Positions 1 through 18,164 of a DNA stretch of 52,946 nt are shown piece after piece (the stretch's first letter is position 1; every line of letters begins with the position of its first letter). Under the pieces are notes generated by a model. It ran no database searches. It was not told the DNA's origin and was given only the letters and a program-made list of their open reading frames with translations. The position numbers were made by a program, and so were the translations under genes. Origin of the DNA: Cellvibrio mixtus subsp. mixtus J3-8 (GTDB lineage: Bacteria > Pseudomonadota > Gammaproteobacteria > Pseudomonadales > Cellvibrionaceae); NCBI RefSeq assembly GCF_000766945.1, contig NZ_KN266214.1, positions 1,627 through 54,572 on the forward strand, in the 5' to 3' direction.

Positions 1-3000
1 TTCCAATCCGATTTTTGCCGCTCACCCCAGGCACCAAAACTCATGCGATTCACAAACTGGCCGAGCGCATTGGTGGTGGCTTCTACTGAGCCCAGGTTAT
101 CCGTGTGTAAGTACACAATATCATTCGCGCTTTGTGTGCCATTGGTGAGCACACGGTTGTTCATGATCACACCATCCACATAACTTTTTTGTGTGGTGGT
201 AGCACCATCAACAATCACTTCATAAGTACCGCCCGCTAACTTGTAGGTGGTTTTGGTGAAGTTAACTTCCTTATACAGCTCGTGATCCGGGTCGTAGTAA
301 AAATCTACGGTGAATGTACCGGAAATACGTGTGGGTTTATTAAATGTATCGTAGGTAATGGACTCACTGCCACGTGCCGTCATGTTGCCGTATTTATCGT
401 AGCTGTAATTCACACCACCAGCAGAAGTCACTGCATGCACACCGGCATTGCGCACTTGTTGATAGAGCAATTCGCCCACATCGTTTTCCATGCCGCTGAA
501 CATATCGGAACGATTAACCAGATTACCCAAACCACCGTTGTCATACGTAAAGGTTTGCGCGCGCGAAAACAGCCCGCTGGTGGTGATGGTTTTTATGCGA
601 TTGAGTTTGTCGTAACCGAAAGACTCGATGATATTTTCCTGCGCCACGCCATTGGCATTGGTCCTTGCTGTCGTGCGTGTGGCGAGATTGCCCAGTGTGT
701 CGTAACTGTAATTCAGGTTTTGGATGTCGCCGTATAAGCTGGTGACATTGTTGATGCTGCTCAGGCGACCGGACTTGATAGTGGTCAAGCGACCATTTTT
801 ATTATCGAAGCCGGTTTGGGTAACAACACCGTTGCCCCATAGCTGGTTATTGAACGCACCGCGAGTATCAACGGTATTACCCAACGCCCACAACACGCGC
901 GACGTGGACGTTACATCGCGCGTTTGGACTTGATAACCCGCCGCATGGTAATCGCGCTGGATTTTGAAACCGTTTGGATATTTAACGGTTTCCGGGCGGC
1001 TGAAGTTGTCGTAGGTGTAAGTAAATTCACCACCATTTAATCCCGCAGTGTTGACAATCTGGCGAGATAAACGTGAGAAACCATCATAAAAATAATCTTC
1101 ACTAAATCCATTGCCGCTGCGGCTTGTTAACTGGCCTTGTTGTCTGGTATCCCATACCCATGAGTAAGAAATATTACTGCCATTAGCAGGTTTATCAATA
1201 CGGCTGGTTTGGCGGCCCAAGCGGTCGTAATCGTAGCTGATATATTTTTCAACACCGTCAATACCTTTTTGCCAGGTTTGTTTGCGCAGTTCGCCAAAAC
1301 CATTGAAATCAAAATTCACAATACCCGCATCGGGATCTTTGATATAGGTTTTGTTTCCGGCAAGATCATGGCGGGTATCAATTTGCGTAACAATATTATT
1401 GTTTACCTGCGCTGTTTCAAGGTTGCCAGCAGCATCGTAACTGTATGCCACGGTGTTATAGAGTGCGTCCTCAACGCGAACCACTTGGCCCAATGCATTA
1501 ATCCAGCTATTGCTGGTTTGTATTTCAGAGCCACCCACGGGTTTTATTACATTTACGTTTTCTGAAACCTTGTAACCATAGCCATCGGTGGTGTAGCTAA
1601 CTGTTTTGCTACCACCATCGGCAGCCACAATGCTATTAGCTCTGCCCATCGCATCGTAACTACTGTAAACAGTCCATGCACTGGCTGAGGCGCTGCTCGC
1701 TAATAGCCCATCAGTTACATAGGGCTCAGAAATTCGAAACAGATTGCCGGCTTCGGAATATTGCGTAGCTTTATTAACCATTTTTCCATCCAAACCATAC
1801 GCCACATTGCGAATTTCACGTTGCAATAAGTCGTAAAAGACGATGCTTAATGGTTCACCCAACTTCCCTGGCTGGGCGGTATGCGTTACCTGGGATGCGA
1901 TACCAAAGATTGCTCCTGTCGGGCAGGTCACCGGCGCATTGGCACAATAAAATGCGATGCTGTCAGAGACTGTGCCATCAGGTCCTTTTTGATGATGCAA
2001 CCGCCCTAATGCGTCGTAAATATTGGTCGTAGATTGCCCCAGGAAAGTTTCCGTGCTAATGGCACCAAAACGATAATCATAGGCATATGTGGTTGTGTGG
2101 CCTTCTGCATTAGTAATGGTTTGCGGATATATGCCGGACGCAAAATTACTGAATGCCGTGATACGTGCAGGTTCATCGGTGCCATCAATATCCCTGGCTA
2201 CTTCAGTAATTTTGTTCACAATGCCATTGTTTTCACGATCATAGGTTGTCGTTTTCTGAATTGGTTCACCCTTGAAATCAATGCGCGACCAAATATCGCG
2301 TTGCGCGTTAGGCGTGAATTCGGTAATGATCCGCTTCAGCCCATTACCTCCGGCTTTTGTCAGTTCTTTAGTCGATGTTAATAGAAAATCATCGCTGCAA
2401 TTTGCCGGTGTGCCGTAATAATCATAATAATTATCAACTTGTTGGTTGGCTTGTTCGCCTGTTACCTCAGTACCATTTATTCCATTGCCGGTTTTTATAG
2501 TTTGCCGGGTGAGATTTCCACACGTATCAAATGTATTAACCGTTTTTCCAACACTGACAGGTAGGGATTCATTGGTTGTACTTAATTCATATTTTTTCTG
2601 CACAGATGAACGCAGGTAAGGAAAACGATTATTTGCTGGATGCAATTCATAGGTATGATCAGTAACAGCAATTAACTTTCCTGAGGTATCTTTAATTACC
2701 TGCTTTTTTACGCGTCCGTTATATGGCCAATCCAGACGATAATCTGTTGAGGTTACCAATGATTTATTAATATCGATGGTTTTTATATTTTCGAAACCGA
2801 TAAATCCACGTCCATGGCGATCAACCCTTGCGCCGGCATAAAAATAATTCCGATAATTCAAACTTCCCCAACCATTACTGGTACCCACCATGGACACCAC
2901 TGGCATGCCGCGACTGGCGGGCATTTGTGGAAATTGCGGTCTAATCCCCGGGGAATACAATGGTGTTTCAAAGCTAACTGTGGGTATTAAGGGGCTGTAA

Positions 3001-6000
3001 CGTATTTCTGTATTTGCAGCAAATCCATCTGTGATGCCCTTTAATAAATCCGGTTGTTTTTGTTTGCCGGGGTAAATCGTACCGCTGTAATTGATATCCA
3101 ATGAACCATCGTTATTGACATCGCCCATCAGTATATTCGCCTGGACCTCACCATACACCGGATTGCACACATTGAGATTGGACAAAAAGGCAACTTGATT
3201 CCCTGACGAATCTTTTGCTTCAACAAAGTTAGCGGAACCACCGTTATTGTCTCGCGCTAGCAATACTCTTAGTTTGCAGACGTTAGGCCCGCTGGGAACT
3301 ATCGCTAACAAATCGTCTCGTCCATCCTGATCGTAATCGTATGCGTACGAGAAATGGTTATAGACGTAATACGATTGACCTGCCTGGCCAGCAATGATGC
3401 CGGTATCGATCTGGTTTCCAAATGAGCCATTTTGCGCGTTAATGCGGTAGAACCACTTACCGGTGTCACCTGTCACTTGATGATAGAGGAAATCTTTGTT
3501 GCCATCTCCATTGATATCCGCCACCACCCTGTACAATCCACCGGTCTGCCTAATGGGGCTATCTTTGAAAGGTTCTGCGACGGTATAGAGTTTAGTGGTA
3601 TTCGCTTCAAAAGAATCACCGAAAGGAAACACAACAAATACACCTACCGGCTTGCCATTAGTGGCTGAAAAATTAACATCGGTTGTAATACGGGATTTTA
3701 AGCCATCGCCACTAATATCAAGAAGCACCGTACCCGCACTCTTGGTGGTATCGCGGGAGCCTGTTTGCACAAATGCAGGTATCGATTGGTATGACTGGAT
3801 AAAGTTGATTCCCTTGTAATTAAAATCATCTAGTCCATCATTATTGAGATCGTCCACTATAAATGAACCAACGTCTGTGGAATCACGATCAATTTCACTA
3901 TAAGTTTTGGTATTGGTGCTTCGATTAATATTGGTGATCAAGCCAACAACTTTCTTATTAGGCGTGACCGTCTTATCAATGGTTTGAATGAGGAGTGCAT
4001 AACCATTGTTGGTCATCACCGGGGCTGCTGCATCAATGGTGTAGCCAGCGGTCACCCAGTCACCATTATCGAAACACAAGCTGGTAGTTCCCCAGGCTAC
4101 CTTGCCGGTTGTTGTAATTATATCGTTGCGTTCATCGCCATCCAGATCAACAATTTGCCTCGCATCGGAGATCTTAGCTCCGTTGCAATATTGCAAGGTG
4201 TATGGATTATTCACATCAAAACCGAACTCACCGCTATCCCAACTGAATTTGAGTGGTTTTGCACATTTCCAACTGGATGACTCATAACCGCACTCGGTGA
4301 TGGAATCCACAAGCTCACGCTGCGTAGCCTGGCTTAATACATAATCAGCATCATAGCGCTTAATGGGCGTGCCATTTTCAGGAAACAGTGGATTTGTCAC
4401 ATTGATATAGGTTGTAACAGTGTCCAATACTTTTTTGCGTTTGTAATAATTACCTCTTGAATAACCCCAGGGTATTTGGCCCAATCGATCCTGATAATTA
4501 AAAACAACGGCGGAACCCGGAGCAAAATTGATTCTCTGTGGATAATAATCACCACTAGCAAGATCATTGATGTAAGAAATCGTATAGGTATTGCCATAAG
4601 TATCTTCTACTTTGTCCAGTAACCAACTGGCTACTGCCGATGCAGTTGTCGTTGAGGAATAAACTTTGCTACCCTGGCTGGAATCCGCCTCGCCAAATGT
4701 CAGAACACGTCCATCCTTCGTCCACACTTTGAAATAACCGTGATCGCCATTTGCACTGGAACCATAAGCAACAATGCGCGAAAAGTTATCCAGTTCCGTT
4801 CGGTATTCCGTTCCGGTTGCCCAATACGTGGAATTTGCCGGGGCTGCACTGGAAGCAATTACCAGTTTTTGTCCATCCAGACACAAACGATCGCCAATTG
4901 TGTAACGCAGATTGGGTTTTTGCGCTTCTGCACCCTCCGTCGCAAAAGTCTTACGGCATCGCGTAATAGCGGAAAGACCACTCAAATTCCAACCAACACC
5001 CATCAAGCCATTTCCAGCACGACTGTTATAAGCAAGCGCCAGTTTTGGTTTCAAATCACGCACGGCTGGCGGCAGTTCAATACCAATTGAATAATTTGCT
5101 GCACCATTACTAACACTGAGATTACCTTGCGTTGATGCAACGAGCTGATTGGCTCCCAGAGAAGGGAGTCCGGAATTTGTTAATGAATAATTAAATATTG
5201 CGGGTGCTTGTGAATTGAAATCGAATAACGTCGCCGAGCTTGAGGTTGACGCCGATGAGCTGCTTGCAGCAGCAACCACAAACCGACCTTCTGCCGACTT
5301 CGACATTCCCCCATTCGAACCACTAGCAACAATATGCCAGTAATAAGTTTTACCTACAGTTAGTGTTGGTGGGGAAGTATTGCTAACAATTGTTGCAGCA
5401 CCATCCGGATTACCGTAACGGGTTCGTTTTACCCAATTTGTGCTCCAGGTTAATTGTGCTGCATTTCCAGCCGTTAATGCACTGCTACCCAAATTATTAA
5501 TTGACCAGAAATCTACATACTGACCACTCAGACCAGCCCGGGGTGATTCGGAAATTGCAATGCTGTAAGACGCTGTTGAAACCAGACTAGCAGTAGTAGC
5601 AGCGAAGAATGGAATCGTTGAGCCAGTTCCACCAACTGCCGGGCTTTGTATAATTGCAGTAGTTGGTGGTACCGGGATATTACCAATTGCGCTTGAGCCA
5701 GTAGTACAACCGGCTGCATTACAGGCTTTTAATAAAAAGGTGTAGTTAACACCAGCGCTGATGATTGGCACTTCCTGATAGGTAGCCATGCCGGAGTAAA
5801 TGAGTAAATTATTCCGGTACAACTCGTAACGCGAAACATTGCTGACAGCATTCCAGGAAATTTCAAAAATGTTGCGATTGAGATTATTACTAATAGTCGG
5901 TGTGGGTTGTGCAGGTAGAGACATCACTGTAAAACTGGCTTGCGCAGATTTGGTGCCGTTGGATCCAACAATGTGCCAATAATAGGTTTTACCAGGAGTG

Positions 6001-6425
6001 AGGCTTGCGGGTGAGCCGACCGTACTACTGCTTACCGCACCATCATAACCACCACTGCGAATATTGCGTGTCCAACCTGAATTCCAGGTCAAACGATTTG
6101 AGTTAGTCGGTGAAAGGTCATTAGCTGTGAGGTTTTGTTTTATCCACCAATCAACGTATTGATTATTAACCCCGCCGCGTGGATTTTCCGAAACCGCAAC
6201 GTTATAAGTCACACCGCTGACAAGGCTTGATGCTACTGCTGAAAATTGCGGAATGGTTGATTGATCACTGCCAACAGGATTGGCGATTTGGGCAGTCTGG
6301 GCAAAGGTGTTGAATGAAATTATTGCCAGAGCAACATAAATAAAAATATGAAGTTGTCTGAAAAAACTCGGAAGGTATTTTTGATGATTGTTTAGCGAGC
6401 GAAATATCCTTAAATATTCAGACAT
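1..6425 (-). CDS. Giant secreted SpvB/RHS-repeat protein, 3' end cut by window edge
   Basis: The frame is open from an ATG at 6425 (GGAGG seven bases upstream) to base 1, so at least 2141 residues are present and the C-terminus lies outside. Order from the N-terminus: a signal peptide ending near FNTFAQ (about residue 43); a module containing QYVDWW and GKTYYWHIV (about 45-165); an FN3-like module (about 170-255); a second copy of the first module with QYVDFW (about 260-380); a polyserine linker (about 385-400); an SpvB-type domain (GVGWNLSG near 480); several FG-GAP/VCBS calcium-type repeats (DLDGDERND, DDLNNDGLDD, DINGDGNKD, DVNNDGSLD, about 755-1110); then YD/RHS repeats such as YDALGRL and YDRLGRQ (about 1450-2080). 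The last residues visible include MSFGAWGER, typical of entry into the RHS core. Such proteins form shells around a C-terminal toxin or act as surface proteins. The role here is inferred; the effector tip is not visible. Confidence 0.9.
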   Translation of the reverse strand, partial: MSEYLRIFRSLNNHQKYLPSFFRQLHIFIYVALAIISFNTFAQTAQIANPVGSDQSTIPQFSAVASSLVSGVTYNVAVSENPRGGVNNQYVDWWIKQNLTANDLSPTNSNRLTWNSGWTRNIRSGGYDGAVSSSTVGSPASLTPGKTYYWHIVGSNGTKSAQASFTVMSLPAQPTPTISNNLNRNIFEISWNAVSNVSRYELYRNNLLIYSGMATYQEVPIISAGVNYTFLLKACNAAGCTTGSSAIGNIPVPPTTAIIQSPAVGGTGSTIPFFAATTASLVSTASYSIAISESPRAGLSGQYVDFWSINNLGSSALTAGNAAQLTWSTNWVKRTRYGNPDGAATIVSNTSPPTLTVGKTYYWHIVASGSNGGMSKSAEGRFVVAAASSSSASTSSSATLFDFNSQAPAIFNYSLTNSGLPSLGANQLVASTQGNLSVSNGAANYSIGIELPPAVRDLKPKLALAYNSRAGNGLMGVGWNLSGLSAITRCRKTFATEGAEAQKPNLRYTIGDRLCLDGQKLVIASSAAPANSTYWATGTEYRTELDNFSRIVAYGSSANGDHGYFKVWTKDGRVLTFGEADSSQGSKVYSSTTTASAVASWLLDKVEDTYGNTYTISYINDLASGDYYPQRINFAPGSAVVFNYQDRLGQIPWGYSRGNYYKRKKVLDTVTTYINVTNPLFPENGTPIKRYDADYVLSQATQRELVDSITECGYESSSWKCAKPLKFSWDSGEFGFDVNNPYTLQYCNGAKISDARQIVDLDGDERNDIITTTGKVAWGTTSLCFDNGDWVTAGYTIDAAAPVMTNNGYALLIQTIDKTVTPNKKVVGLITNINRSTNTKTYSEIDRDSTDVGSFIVDDLNNDGLDDFNYKGINFIQSYQSIPAFVQTGSRDTTKSAGTVLLDISGDGLKSRITTDVNFSATNGKPVGVFVVFPFGDSFEANTTKLYTVAEPFKDSPIRQTGGLYRVVADINGDGNKDFLYHQVTGDTGKWFYRINAQNGSFGNQIDTGIIAGQAGQSYYVYNHFSYAYDYDQDGRDDLLAIVPSGPNVCKLRVLLARDNNGGSANFVEAKDSSGNQVAFLSNLNVCNPVYGEVQANILMGDVNNDGSLDINYSGTIYPGKQKQPDLLKGITDGFAANTEIRYSPLIPTVSFETPLYSPGIRPQFPQMPASRGMPVVSMVGTSNGWGSLNYRNYFYAGARVDRHGRGFIGFENIKTIDINKSLVTSTDYRLDWPYNGRVKKQVIKDTSGKLIAVTDHTYELHPANNRFPYLRSSVQKKYELSTTNESLPVSVGKTVNTFDTCGNLTRQTIKTGNGINGTEVTGEQANQQVDNYYDYYGTPANCSDDFLLTSTKELTKAGGNGLKRIITEFTPNAQRDIWSRIDFKGEPIQKTTTYDRENNGIVNKITEVARDIDGTDEPARITAFSNFASGIYPQTITNAEGHTTTYAYDYRFGAISTETFLGQSTTNIYDALGRLHHQKGPDGTVSDSIAFYCANAPVTCPTGAIFGIASQVTHTAQPGKLGEPLSIVFYDLLQREIRNVAYGLDGKMVNKATQYSEAGNLFRISEPYVTDGLLASSASASAWTVYSSYDAMGRANSIVAADGGSKTVSYTTDGYGYKVSENVNVIKPVGGSEIQTSNSWINALGQVVRVEDALYNTVAYSYDAAGNLETAQVNNNIVTQIDTRHDLAGNKTYIKDPDAGIVNFDFNGFGELRKQTWQKGIDGVEKYISYDYDRLGRQTSRIDKPANGSNISYSWVWDTRQQGQLTSRSGNGFSEDYFYDGFSRLSRQIVNTAGLNGGEFTYTYDNFSRPETVKYPNGFKIQRDYHAAGYQVQTRDVTSTSRVLWALGNTVDTRGAFNNQLWGNGVVTQTGFDNKNGRLTTIKSGRLSSINNVTSLYGDIQNLNYSYDTLGNLATRTTARTNANGVAQENIIESFGYDKLNRIKTITTSGLFSRAQTFTYDNGGLGNLVNRSDMFSGMENDVGELLYQQVRNAGVHAVTSAGGVNYSYDKYGNMTARGSESITYDTFNKPTRISGTFTVDFYYDPDHELYKEVNFTKTTYKLAGGTYEVIVDGATTTQKSYVDGVIMNNRVLTNGTQSANDIVYLHTDNLGSVEATTNALGQFVNRMSFGAWGERQKSDW

Positions 6426-6695
6426 AAGTAAACCTCCATATTATGGATCTATGATTGATAGCAAGAGAGAAAAAAAGGAGAGAGGGCAATGCAGGGTAGG
6501 ACACCTATCCATAGCGCCATCTGGTTTAAATTTAAGCGGAGGGCATAATATCGATGAAAACACGGCGTGACAATAGTCACTTTAATACTAAAAAATCAAC
6601 AACCGTTGCAAATATGGATTAATTGCTTGAAAAGGATATAAAAGATCGAGATCAATAATATGCAGGGCAAACCAATGCCCTGCATACCCTAACGA
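6426..6695. other. Intergenic region between the RHS gene and kduD
   Basis: This 270-base stretch holds the promoter side of the minus-strand RHS gene and the end of kduD. It has a purine-rich patch (about 6470-6487) and a short inverted repeat GTGAC/GTCAC near 6566-6579. I see no convincing gene. Confidence 0.4.
6660..6685 (-). terminator. Hairpin downstream of kduD
   Basis: ATGCAGGGCA and TGCCCTGCAT form a perfect 10-base inverted repeat around a 6-base loop, 11 bases after the kduD stop codon. There is no clear U-tract on the minus strand, so it may be a weak terminator or an mRNA-stabilising 3' hairpin. Confidence 0.55.
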
Positions 6696-15834: not shown

Positions 15835-16318
15835 TGCGTGTTCTCTCGTGTATTGCTTTATCGGCTGAATGCTTTTGTTGTTATGGCCAGACCTGGACGC
15901 TTCGATAAGTGAGTAACAAATTCGCCCGCATTACTTATGAAAGAGTTTTAGCAGACGATTCTGATTGCCACTGGCAAATGTCCAATCCGGCTTTTTCGAG
16001 AAGAAGATACTTATCCTCCTATCGAACGAAAATCATTCTGTATGTCATGTTTGATATTTGCAAGCCAATAGCACAAAAATTTTCCTTAACAAGCGTAAAT
16101 TTAGTGTTTTTTACGCCATATTTGTCATGTAACCGTTTTCTTTTATTTTTTAATTAAAATGTAAACGTATACACATCACTTTAAATAGAAATTTTTTAAA
16201 AAATATTTGATTTTTATTGAAAATAAAACATCCTAATATTTTTATAATATTAGGATAAACTTAATAATATGATAGATTCGTTTTTATGTAACAGGCTAAA
16301 GATTTGTTTTGCGCCATA
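15835..16318. other. Gene-free region between GH28 and the uxaA leader
   Basis: This is the divergent intergenic stretch between GH28 (minus) and uxaA (plus). It becomes very AT-rich from about 16040. It carries ATGTAACCGTTTTC at 16127-16140, a partial match to the palindrome at 16319-16332. TCCTAATATT/AATATTAGGA (16231-16255) forms a perfect 10-base inverted repeat with a 5-base loop. Short open frames here have no ribosome site or family character. Confidence 0.4.
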
Positions 16319-16332
16319 TGAAACCGGTTACA
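16319..16332. promoter_or_regulatory. LacI-type palindromic operator candidate
   Basis: TGAAACCGGTTACA is a near-perfect palindrome with an AACCGGTT core, the form typical of LacI/GalR-family operators. A possible promoter (TTGTTT at 16304-16309, TTACAT at 16328-16333, 18-base spacing) would be overlapped by it at the -10 element, which suits repression. No LacI-family gene is in the window, so the regulator is unknown. Confidence 0.45.
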
Positions 16333-16339
16333 TTTGAGT

Positions 16340-16450
16340 TTTTGGGCTTTGGAGGGTGGTTGCGAGAGCCAAAAATCGGGCGTAGATTTGATCCCGGTAT
16401 TGACCGAATACCATTGCCGATTTTGAGGCGCCGCAAGGCGCCTTTTTTTT
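16340..16450 (+). ncRNA. Candidate structured leader or small RNA upstream of uxaA
   Basis: There is no gene before the strong plus-strand terminator at 16426-16450, so a short RNA or attenuated leader is likely. Visible pairings are AAAATCGGGC (16372-16381) with GCCGATTTT (16416-16424), enclosing a perfect hairpin GGTATT/AATACC (16396-16412), and a looser GGCT/AGCC stem upstream (about 16345-16370). The 5' end is not known; 16340 is an estimate from the possible promoter. Confidence 0.4.
16426..16450 (+). terminator. Strong intrinsic terminator in the uxaA leader
   Basis: AGGCGCC, loop GCAA, GGCGCCT, then a run of eight T. It lies 193 bases upstream of the uxaA start on the same strand and follows no recognisable gene. 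Confidence 0.8.
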
Positions 16451-16476
16451 AAGATCGAATTTATCGGTGCAGCCAA

Positions 16477-16494
16477 ATGCGTCCAGGGACGCAT
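16477..16494. repeat. Perfect 8-base hairpin downstream of the leader terminator
   Basis: ATGCGTCC/GGACGCAT with a 2-base centre, 27 bases past the terminator. Farther on, TTCCTTAATTCG occurs twice in tandem (16596-16607 and 16609-16620) just before the uxaA ribosome site. Confidence 0.5.
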
Positions 16495-16643
16495 GGAGTT
16501 GAGGGAATAGCAGTGAGAATTTTCTGAACGGCTACACTTGAAATGATCGCGGAGGCATCAATCCTTTTCGGTAATTCATTACATTGATTCGTTAGTTCCT
16601 TAATTCGCTTCCTTAATTCGAGAGCATCGAAAGAGAGACACGC

Positions 16644-18164
16644 GTGAGCAGTATTATTGTTTTGCATGACAGAGATAACGTCGGTATTTGTAAAGTTGCC
16701 CTGCCAGCCGGGGTTCTGTATGCAGAAAAAGATGTCACCCTCCTGCGCGATATTCCCGCCCTGCACAAGTTTGCGGTGCGTCCCATCGCCAAAGGCGAAG
16801 CGATTTTGAAATACGGGCAAACCATTGGTTTCGCCAGCCAGGATATTCCCGCCGGTGAACATGTGCATGTGCACAATTGCGCGATGGGTGCTCTGGAAAA
16901 AGATTACGGTTTTTGTGAAGAAGCCAATCCTACTGAATTTGTAGCCATCGAAAAACGTGCAACCTTCCAGGGCTATAAGCGCCTGAATGGCAAAGTGGGA
17001 ACGCGCAATTTTGTGGGCATTATCACTACCGTGAATTGCTCGGCGACTGTTGCAAAAGCCATTGCCCAGCATTTCACCTTCTCCGGCGAGCTGCAAAAAT
17101 ATCCGAATATTGATGGCGTCGTCGCCATGACCCACGACTCAGGCTGCGGTATGCGCTCGGATGGTGAAGGTTATGAAACCTTGCGTCGCACGTTTAACGG
17201 TTATGCTCGTCACCCGAATTTTGGCGGTGTGATGATGGTGGGCCTGGGTTGCGAAACCATGCAGATCCAGCGTGTGATGGAAGAATGCGGGCTCGCCGAT
17301 TCCAACACATTTACCGCGTATACCATTCAGGACGTAGGCGGTACGCGCATCGCGATTGAAAAAGGTATTGAAACCCTGCGCGCGATGTTGCCACTGGTCA
17401 ACGAATTCCAACGCGAAACGGTTCCTGCAAGCGAATTAATTATCGGTTTGCAATGCGGCGGTTCTGATGCACTTTCCGGTGTAACGGCAAACCCTGCTTT
17501 GGGCATTGCCGGCGATATTTTGGTTCGTCACGGCGGCACCGTCATTTTGTCTGAAACACCGGAAATTTTCGGTGCAGAGCATTTGCTAACACGCCGCGCG
17601 GAAAACCCGCAAATCGCGCAAAAATTATTGGATCGCATCAGCTGGTGGGAAGATTACACCGCGCGCAATGATTTCGAATTAAATAATAATCCATCACCCG
17701 GCAATAAAGCCGGTGGATTAACAACCATTATTGAAAAGTCACTCGGTGCGCAAGCCAAAAGTGGCTCAACCAATTTAACCGATGTATTTTTATACGGCGA
17801 AGACATAACCACCAAAGGTTTTGTGTTTATGGACAGCCCCGGTTATGACCCGGTATCCGCCACGGGCCAGGTCGCATCGGGCGCGCAGATTTTATGCTTC
17901 ACTACCGGCCGCGGTTCTGCATTTGGTTGCAAACCGGCGCCCAGTATCAAACTTGCTACCAACAGTAAAATCTTTGCGCATATGAATGAGGATATGGATT
18001 TGAATTGCGGAAAAGTGCTGGACGGCGAGGTTACACTGGAACAAAACGGCCAGGAAATTTTTGAAGAAATACTCGCAGTTGCTTCCGGGAAAAAAACCAA
18101 AAGCGAATTGCTTGGCTACGGCGATAATGAATTTATCCCGTGGAAAATTGGGGCAGTGGTTTAA
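16644..18164 (+). CDS. uxaA: Altronate dehydratase UxaA
   Basis: Cytoplasmic iron-dependent dehydratase converting D-altronate to KDG in the galacturonate route. The 506-residue protein has the full two-part architecture: an N-terminal SAF-like domain (about 1-95, with HVHVHNCAMG) and the UxaA/GarD catalytic domain, with MTHDSGCGMRSDGEGYETLRRT, GLGCETMQ, QCGGSDALSGVTANPALG and FTTGRGSAFGCKPAPSIK. The GTG at 16644 follows AAGAGAG at a suitable distance. It has its own long leader with a possible operator, a structured RNA and a terminator. The closely related galactarate dehydratase GarD is the alternative, but neighbours of the uronate pathway favour altronate. Confidence 0.92.
   Translation: MSSIIVLHDRDNVGICKVALPAGVLYAEKDVTLLRDIPALHKFAVRPIAKGEAILKYGQTIGFASQDIPAGEHVHVHNCAMGALEKDYGFCEEANPTEFVAIEKRATFQGYKRLNGKVGTRNFVGIITTVNCSATVAKAIAQHFTFSGELQKYPNIDGVVAMTHDSGCGMRSDGEGYETLRRTFNGYARHPNFGGVMMVGLGCETMQIQRVMEECGLADSNTFTAYTIQDVGGTRIAIEKGIETLRAMLPLVNEFQRETVPASELIIGLQCGGSDALSGVTANPALGIAGDILVRHGGTVILSETPEIFGAEHLLTRRAENPQIAQKLLDRISWWEDYTARNDFELNNNPSPGNKAGGLTTIIEKSLGAQAKSGSTNLTDVFLYGEDITTKGFVFMDSPGYDPVSATGQVASGAQILCFTTGRGSAFGCKPAPSIKLATNSKIFAHMNEDMDLNCGKVLDGEVTLEQNGQEIFEEILAVASGKKTKSELLGYGDNEFIPWKIGAVV

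Follow-up and report, generated by a model that had tools for sequence, protein, structure and literature searches.

A conserved candidate small RNA beside uxaA in Cellvibrio and its predicted link to the translation of pectate lyases

The window analysed here is the whole stretch of 52,946 nucleotides from Cellvibrio mixtus subsp. mixtus J3-8, which lies on contig C11 of the genome that we label G000. In this window, uxaA, the gene for altronate dehydratase (16644-18164, + strand; PF20629, PF04295 and PF08666), is preceded on the same strand by a candidate small RNA gene of ∼56-57 nt (16395-16450), recognised by its conservation and folding. The gene comprises a 26-nt core, GGTATTGACCGAATACCATTGCCGAT (16396-16421, + strand), which is invariant among its copies, and an intrinsic terminator ending in a run of eight thymines (16425-16450, + strand; stem 16425-16444, T8 16443-16450). 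The initial annotation of this DNA had placed a terminator upstream of uxaA with no gene before it, and both points are borne out: no + strand ORF of at least 100 amino acids terminates in the 600 nt before the RNA. The perfect hairpin described at 16396-16412 is also there, as a 6-bp stem (GGTATT-GACCG-AATACC). The pattern scan that detected the terminator gave 1 against 1.9 expected, and alone would not single it out. Folding of the 57-nt stretch 16395-16451 gives -22.2 kcal/mol (z -4.54), with none of 200 dinucleotide shuffles as good, and the fold of the whole region 16300-16460 stands out modestly from its shuffles (z -2.05, 4 of 200 as good). The core can form two hairpins that differ little in energy (-22.0 and -22.2), and ACCG is unpaired in both. 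A leader peptide (TTG-ACC-GAA...) was dropped by eye since the length of the linker shifts its frame and stop.

Transcription of the RNA is predicted to start at ∼16395 from a promoter made up of a -35 box TTGCGA (16360-16365, + strand), a 17-nt spacer and a -10 box TAGATT (16383-16388, + strand). As the two boxes match only 8 of the 12 consensus bases, the promoter is missing from the promoter-scan list, and our prediction rests on conservation rather than on the scan. A TTG-type hexamer followed after 17 or 18 nt by a TA...T hexamer was found in 22 of 23 copies of the RNA by script and in the copy of G085 by eye, the boxes having 6 to 9 of the 12 consensus bases. By prediction and conservation, the RNA has both a promoter of its own and an intrinsic terminator. 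A LacI-type, CG-centred palindrome, TGAAACCGGTTACA, is located at 16319-16332. The palindrome noticed in the initial annotation is therefore present, but it lies 27 nt upstream of the -35 box and does not overlap the -10 box as had been suggested. By eye, similar palindromes are found upstream of 18 of the 23 copies, and a TGACA.CGCT-type palindrome at the other five. A second LacI-like palindrome, TGTAAACGTATACA, lies at 16160-16173, towards the GH28 end of the intergenic region. A possible separate -10 box of uxaA, TACACT (16533-16538, + strand), was picked out by eye in L001-L012, and a good -35 box to go with it was not found. At the left end of the window, positions 1-6600 have no long closed ORF listed, and a gene probably runs off that end.

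A covariance model built from 17 copies was run on 144 genomes of the family. Matches of at least 69 bits were obtained in 20 of these genomes, with 23 copies, and the next match had 32 bits; matches at or below 32 bits were left out, and those inspected share mainly the terminator. The carriers are 17 of the 21 Cellvibrio genomes and three Marinimicrobium-type genomes (genus g46). A DNA search of 57 relatives gave matches in 19; in two of them (L018 and L019) only the terminator is matched, and these are excluded from the copies. The 26-nt core is identical in 23 of 23 copies; one core pattern search required 21 exact bases, but the DNA and covariance-model searches did not. Over the 20 uxaA-linked copies, identity is 1.00 in the core, 0.42 in the upstream block, 0.43 in the 13 spacer bases before the -10 box and 0.29 after the terminator. 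The covariance search of relatives that the initial annotation called for has thus returned a conserved RNA, but not the compensatory changes that were to accompany it: neither stem has a two-sided change, and the core hairpin never varies.

The uxaA gene itself is found in 75 of the 144 genomes (E up to 1e-100). The RNA was not found in four Cellvibrio genomes: G006 and G020, which gave no match for uxaA either, G002, where uxaA is represented by a fragment only, and G005, whose uxaA is intact but preceded by a different region. Inspection of 21 loci for a divergent form of the sRNA in G005 and G006 revealed none with the core followed by a terminator, and plasmids gave no match. Comparison of the window with the 4227 families of Rfam 15 gave no match above the gathering cut-off (the best sub-threshold scores were 18.8 bits for isrK and 19.5 bits for Atu_C8, with cut-offs of 50), and no known Rfam family was found in nine target or copy loci.

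That 20 of the 23 copies are located upstream of uxaA would fit a leader acting in cis, in which a uronate would control the terminator of an attenuator or riboswitch and the short RNA would be a by-product. The distance from the T-run to uxaA is 61-208 nt. In five genomes (G003, G009, G012, G015 and G017) it is only 61-94 nt, so a second promoter would hardly fit and uxaA may be transcribed there by read-through. The RNA may also have a minor role as a leader. We nevertheless consider a cis-acting leader very unlikely as the explanation of this RNA. No conserved aptamer, antiterminator or other alternative to the terminator was seen, only the core and the terminator are conserved within the RNA, and Rfam offers no match. 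The closing stem that had been drawn between 16372-16381 and 16416-16424 is complementary in this sequence, but only two of the 23 copies have its AAATCGG string ahead of the core, and the other 21 lack it. Moreover, the 5' arm of the stem falls within the promoter spacer, between the two boxes, and would therefore not be part of the RNA. The alternative in the same annotation, a small RNA, is strongly supported by sequence, through the predicted promoter, the invariant core, the terminator, the second copies and the conserved pairing partners.

A second copy of the sRNA is found away from uxaA in each of G000, G013 and G014. The gene downstream of it points towards the sRNA, and none of the three copies has a co-directional gene, which argues against a cis-acting leader and favours action of the sRNA in trans. 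The sRNA gene is hence separable from its neighbour in these three genomes. The second copies have the promoter TTGTCA-17-TACATT and terminator stems that are altered yet present. Their neighbours are TonB receptors in G013 (Pfam), a TonB-like ORF (by eye) and an EamA transporter (Pfam) in G000, and an adjoining receptor-like ORF in G014 (by eye).

How the sRNA came to lie beside uxaA is suggested by the uxaA leaders of other Cellvibrionaceae (L072-L086). Seen by eye, these leaders often have TTGCGG-17-TAGATT with no core, and often a spacer palindrome resembling GGTCTGACC together with a GntR-like ORF in divergent orientation. This uxaA promoter looks ancestral to that of the sRNA, and the sRNA may have been inserted behind it.

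To find where the core could pair, we surveyed TTCGGTCAAT sites in seven genomes and classified the 112 of 113 that were recovered, using automatically called ORFs that make the distances approximate. In leaders, there are 14 sense sites against 1 antisense (p 5e-4), or about 9 genes against 1 when orthologs are counted once. Sites in coding regions are balanced (37 sense, 39 antisense), and those in 3'UTRs are 7 sense and 1 antisense, with two PL10 sites at ∼-104 counted there because the leader cut-off was 100 nt. The remaining sites are 8 sRNA copies and 5 other intergenic ones. A conserved seed with conserved complements in mRNAs is thus found. Besides pectate lyases, the carriers of leader sites are GH43, nagB (three genomes), a GntR-like gene and a lipoprotein. 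Total numbers of sites are in mild excess over the reversed control, at 77 against 63, and at 321 against 272 without 20 sRNA copies. In 21 genomes, the reverse complement of the hairpin (at most 2 mismatches) occurs at 38 places outside sRNA genes against 17 for the reversed control. Many of these 38 places are one orthologous 3'UTR element between a small ORF and its terminator; by script, the element was found in 10 of the 21 genomes, was absent from G016, G007 and G018, and could not be read in the remaining eight. In five genomes there is another 3'UTR site, downstream of a glycosidase ORF that we take to be GH30-like. The sequence complementary to the core's 3' half, ATCGGCAATGG, has 291 matches in the 21 genomes, sRNA copies included, against 80 for a reversed control that is unmatched for codon use. 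Codon use may lie behind the excess, or this half may have further targets.

In the nagB leaders L172, L335 and L411, TTCGGTCAAT(A/G)CC abuts a CACTC-ACTG-GAGTG hairpin that holds the Shine-Dalgarno sequence. In four genomes, galT-like genes (L426, L436, L447 and L461) have TTCGGTCAAT at about codons 5-8, which may reflect conservation of the protein or another target. The leaders of the window's own genes contain no exact long complement to the sRNA. Of 20 window leaders scanned, those of a pntA-like gene, pntB and a hexapeptide gene scored low (z -4.4, -2.8 and -1.9) at -21 to -23 kcal/mol, but they were rejected as targets because the pairings have large gaps.

Leader sites are also found in three pectate-lyase families, PL3, PL1 and PL10. 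In PL3 (PF03211), all 11 members of one ortholog group have TTCGGTCAATCCG at -46 to -53. Over the 30 PL3 loci, 11 have this -50 site and 19 are without it, three of the latter having TCAATACC near -80. TATAGT is kept in 11 of 11 leaders ∼100 nt upstream of the site, which is therefore probably transcribed. For PL1 (PF00544), 31 of 82 matches were examined: 15 loci have the module (altered in L370 and L371), L221 and L385 have another layout, 10 have none, and 4 were unjudged by the script, of which L384 carries the site in a separate listing. The PL10 site is found in three genomes, G007, G016 and G018, where the enzyme was identified by PF09492 for L450 and by eye for L432 and L423. In G007 and G016 almost all of the core is matched, giving a duplex of -36.1 kcal/mol, and such long pairing would account for the retention of ACCAUUGCCGA. 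The presence of sites does not follow the sRNA strictly, which counts against the proposed regulation: in G005 the PL3 site and a weaker site in PL1 persist although the sRNA was not found, G009 gave no PL1 or PL3 match despite its sRNA, and in G012 and G015, which also have the sRNA, the module is lacking at the 6 of 8 and 2 of 7 loci inspected. PL1 and PL3 have a common fold and PL10 a different one, so PL1 and PL3 may also have come to share leaders by exchange.

The sites are near-palindromic, the set of genes is functionally coherent, and G005 retains sites without the sRNA. The GGTATT-N5-AATACC palindrome and the ATTCGGTCAAT sites could accordingly be read as DNA operators of a pectin regulator, with no RNA pairing involved. 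However, the leader sites keep one strand (14 against 1), other sites lie in 3'UTRs ahead of terminators, and the PL3 site is ∼100 nt downstream of the conserved TATAGT. A regulon of such operators was dropped, as no genome has more than three occurrences of the strict palindrome, and we regard operators as a most improbable account of these sites.

How pairing could affect translation is suggested by folding of 26 PL1 and PL3 leaders, which were chosen because the module is present; the cutting pattern was written from their arms, and 26 of 26 passed. In most minimum-energy folds, CAAUC-CGUC pairs with GACG-A-GAUUG around the Shine-Dalgarno sequence, with variants in L362 (outer arm CGGUC) and in L377, L364 and L371 (CCGUC with GACGG). 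The masking arms are complementary in 24 of the 26 leaders (one terminal mismatch) and 11 to 27 nt apart, the other two having a variant stem, and the stem of L372 has one compensatory change from a G-C to an A-U pair. A masked ribosome site is thus predicted by folding in these site-selected leaders, and the 3' half of the pairing site is the arm that hides it. When the 13-nt site is blocked, the mean predicted accessibility of the Shine-Dalgarno sequence rises from 0.14 to 0.41, by more than 0.1 in 23 of 26 leaders, and with a 13-nt control block upstream of the site it stays at 0.14. A 10-nt block in a shorter window gives a smaller rise (0.20 to 0.34). For L221 the value goes from 0.29 to 0.63 (control 0.31), and for GH43 from 0.35 to 0.53. 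Among the PL10 leaders, that of G016 rises from 0.00 to 0.30 and that of G007 barely (0.22 to 0.24), while that of G018 rises from 0.05 to 0.44 but also responds to the control block (0.37). The net cofold energy contrasts weakly with that of shuffled sRNA (mean -8.5 against -5.2, with equal best values of -17.6).

Overlap of site and masking arm is found in the pectate-lyase leaders but not in those of nagB and the lipoprotein. With the site blocked, nagB has no consistent rise (0.26 to 0.32, 0.22 to 0.17 and 0.23 to 0.16), and the lipoprotein falls from 0.39 to 0.27. These two have their sites at ∼-30 with no consistent predicted release of the Shine-Dalgarno sequence, as would be expected if the sRNA acted in trans on the same targets by repression, blocking ribosome loading or recruiting a nuclease and providing negative feedback at high galacturonate. 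The majority of known sRNAs are repressors. Against this, the site coincides with the masking arm in PL1, PL3, PL10 and L221, and sites at -50 or -100 are far for direct occlusion. We judge repression to be unlikely, and activation by unmasking to be the most likely mode of regulation.

We consider it likely that the RNA is a trans-acting sRNA, encoded beside galacturonate catabolism, that activates the translation of pectate lyases by an anti-antisense route like that of DsrA. In this proposal, an sRNA of ∼57 nt would be made from the promoter adjoining uxaA, and its 5' hairpin would expose ACCG, where pairing would start and open into 10-24 bp with UUCGGUCAAU plus CCG in PL1 and PL3 leaders and with UUCGGCAUGGUUUCGGUCAAUACC in PL10 leaders. 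The paired stretch would be the arm that masks the Shine-Dalgarno sequence, through CAAUC-CGUC with GACG-A-GAUUG in PL1 and PL3 and through the hairpin of AAUACCUU with AAGGUAUU in PL10, and pairing should therefore make the ribosome site accessible and increase translation. In cells that degrade galacturonate, more pectate lyase would then be made, in a feed-forward loop. The anatomy of the sRNA gene, its conservation, the pairing sites and the predicted masking are well supported by comparison of sequences, and we infer from them that the sRNA is transcribed, uses Hfq, activates its targets and is induced by galacturonate. To the broader claim, that a new sRNA family couples the galacturonate locus to pectinase translation, that site and masking arm in the three pectate-lyase families are convergent or exchanged, and that the 3'UTR sites are sponges or further targets, we give about an even chance.

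The proposed action resembles that of DsrA, ArcZ and RprA on rpoS, where a short sRNA pairs with the masking arm of a leader and frees the ribosome site. The Cellvibrio sRNA differs from these in sequence and hosts, and in that its predicted targets are several secreted pectinases, not one regulator. Spot 42, ChiX, MicF and others are likewise stand-alone sRNA genes linked to nutrient use, from which the Cellvibrio sRNA is set apart in so far as no Rfam family matches the window. RssR of the Salmonella myo-inositol island is also an sRNA encoded inside a sugar-catabolism locus and has a positive effect through a 5'UTR, but it stabilises the mRNA of the activator reiD, whereas the predicted targets of the Cellvibrio sRNA are the enzymes themselves (PMC6288124). 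In a review of bacterial hemicellulase gene control that covers Cellvibrio japonicus, the terms 'sRNA', 'small RNA' and 'post-transcriptional' do not occur (PMC10766802), and a search of titles and abstract openings gave no Cellvibrio sRNA and no sRNA pairing with pectate-lyase leaders. As far as this search goes, the sRNA family appears undescribed and has a coherent predicted pectinolysis regulon. If true, an sRNA that links intracellular catabolism of a sugar acid to secreted pectate lyases would be a post-transcriptional layer in plant-wall degradation. One invariant 26-nt RNA set against three pectate-lyase families would also allow the origin of target sites to be tested cleanly.

Two further features of PL1 leaders were seen by eye. 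In L366, L367, L378, L381 and other PL1 leaders, an A-rich AATAA.AATAATA-like stretch lies upstream of the site and resembles Hfq-binding repeats. A second PL1 group (L359, L360, L361 and L363) has a different stem that could mask the Shine-Dalgarno sequence, GGTCTCGC with GCGAGA, and a further regulator RNA may be involved there.
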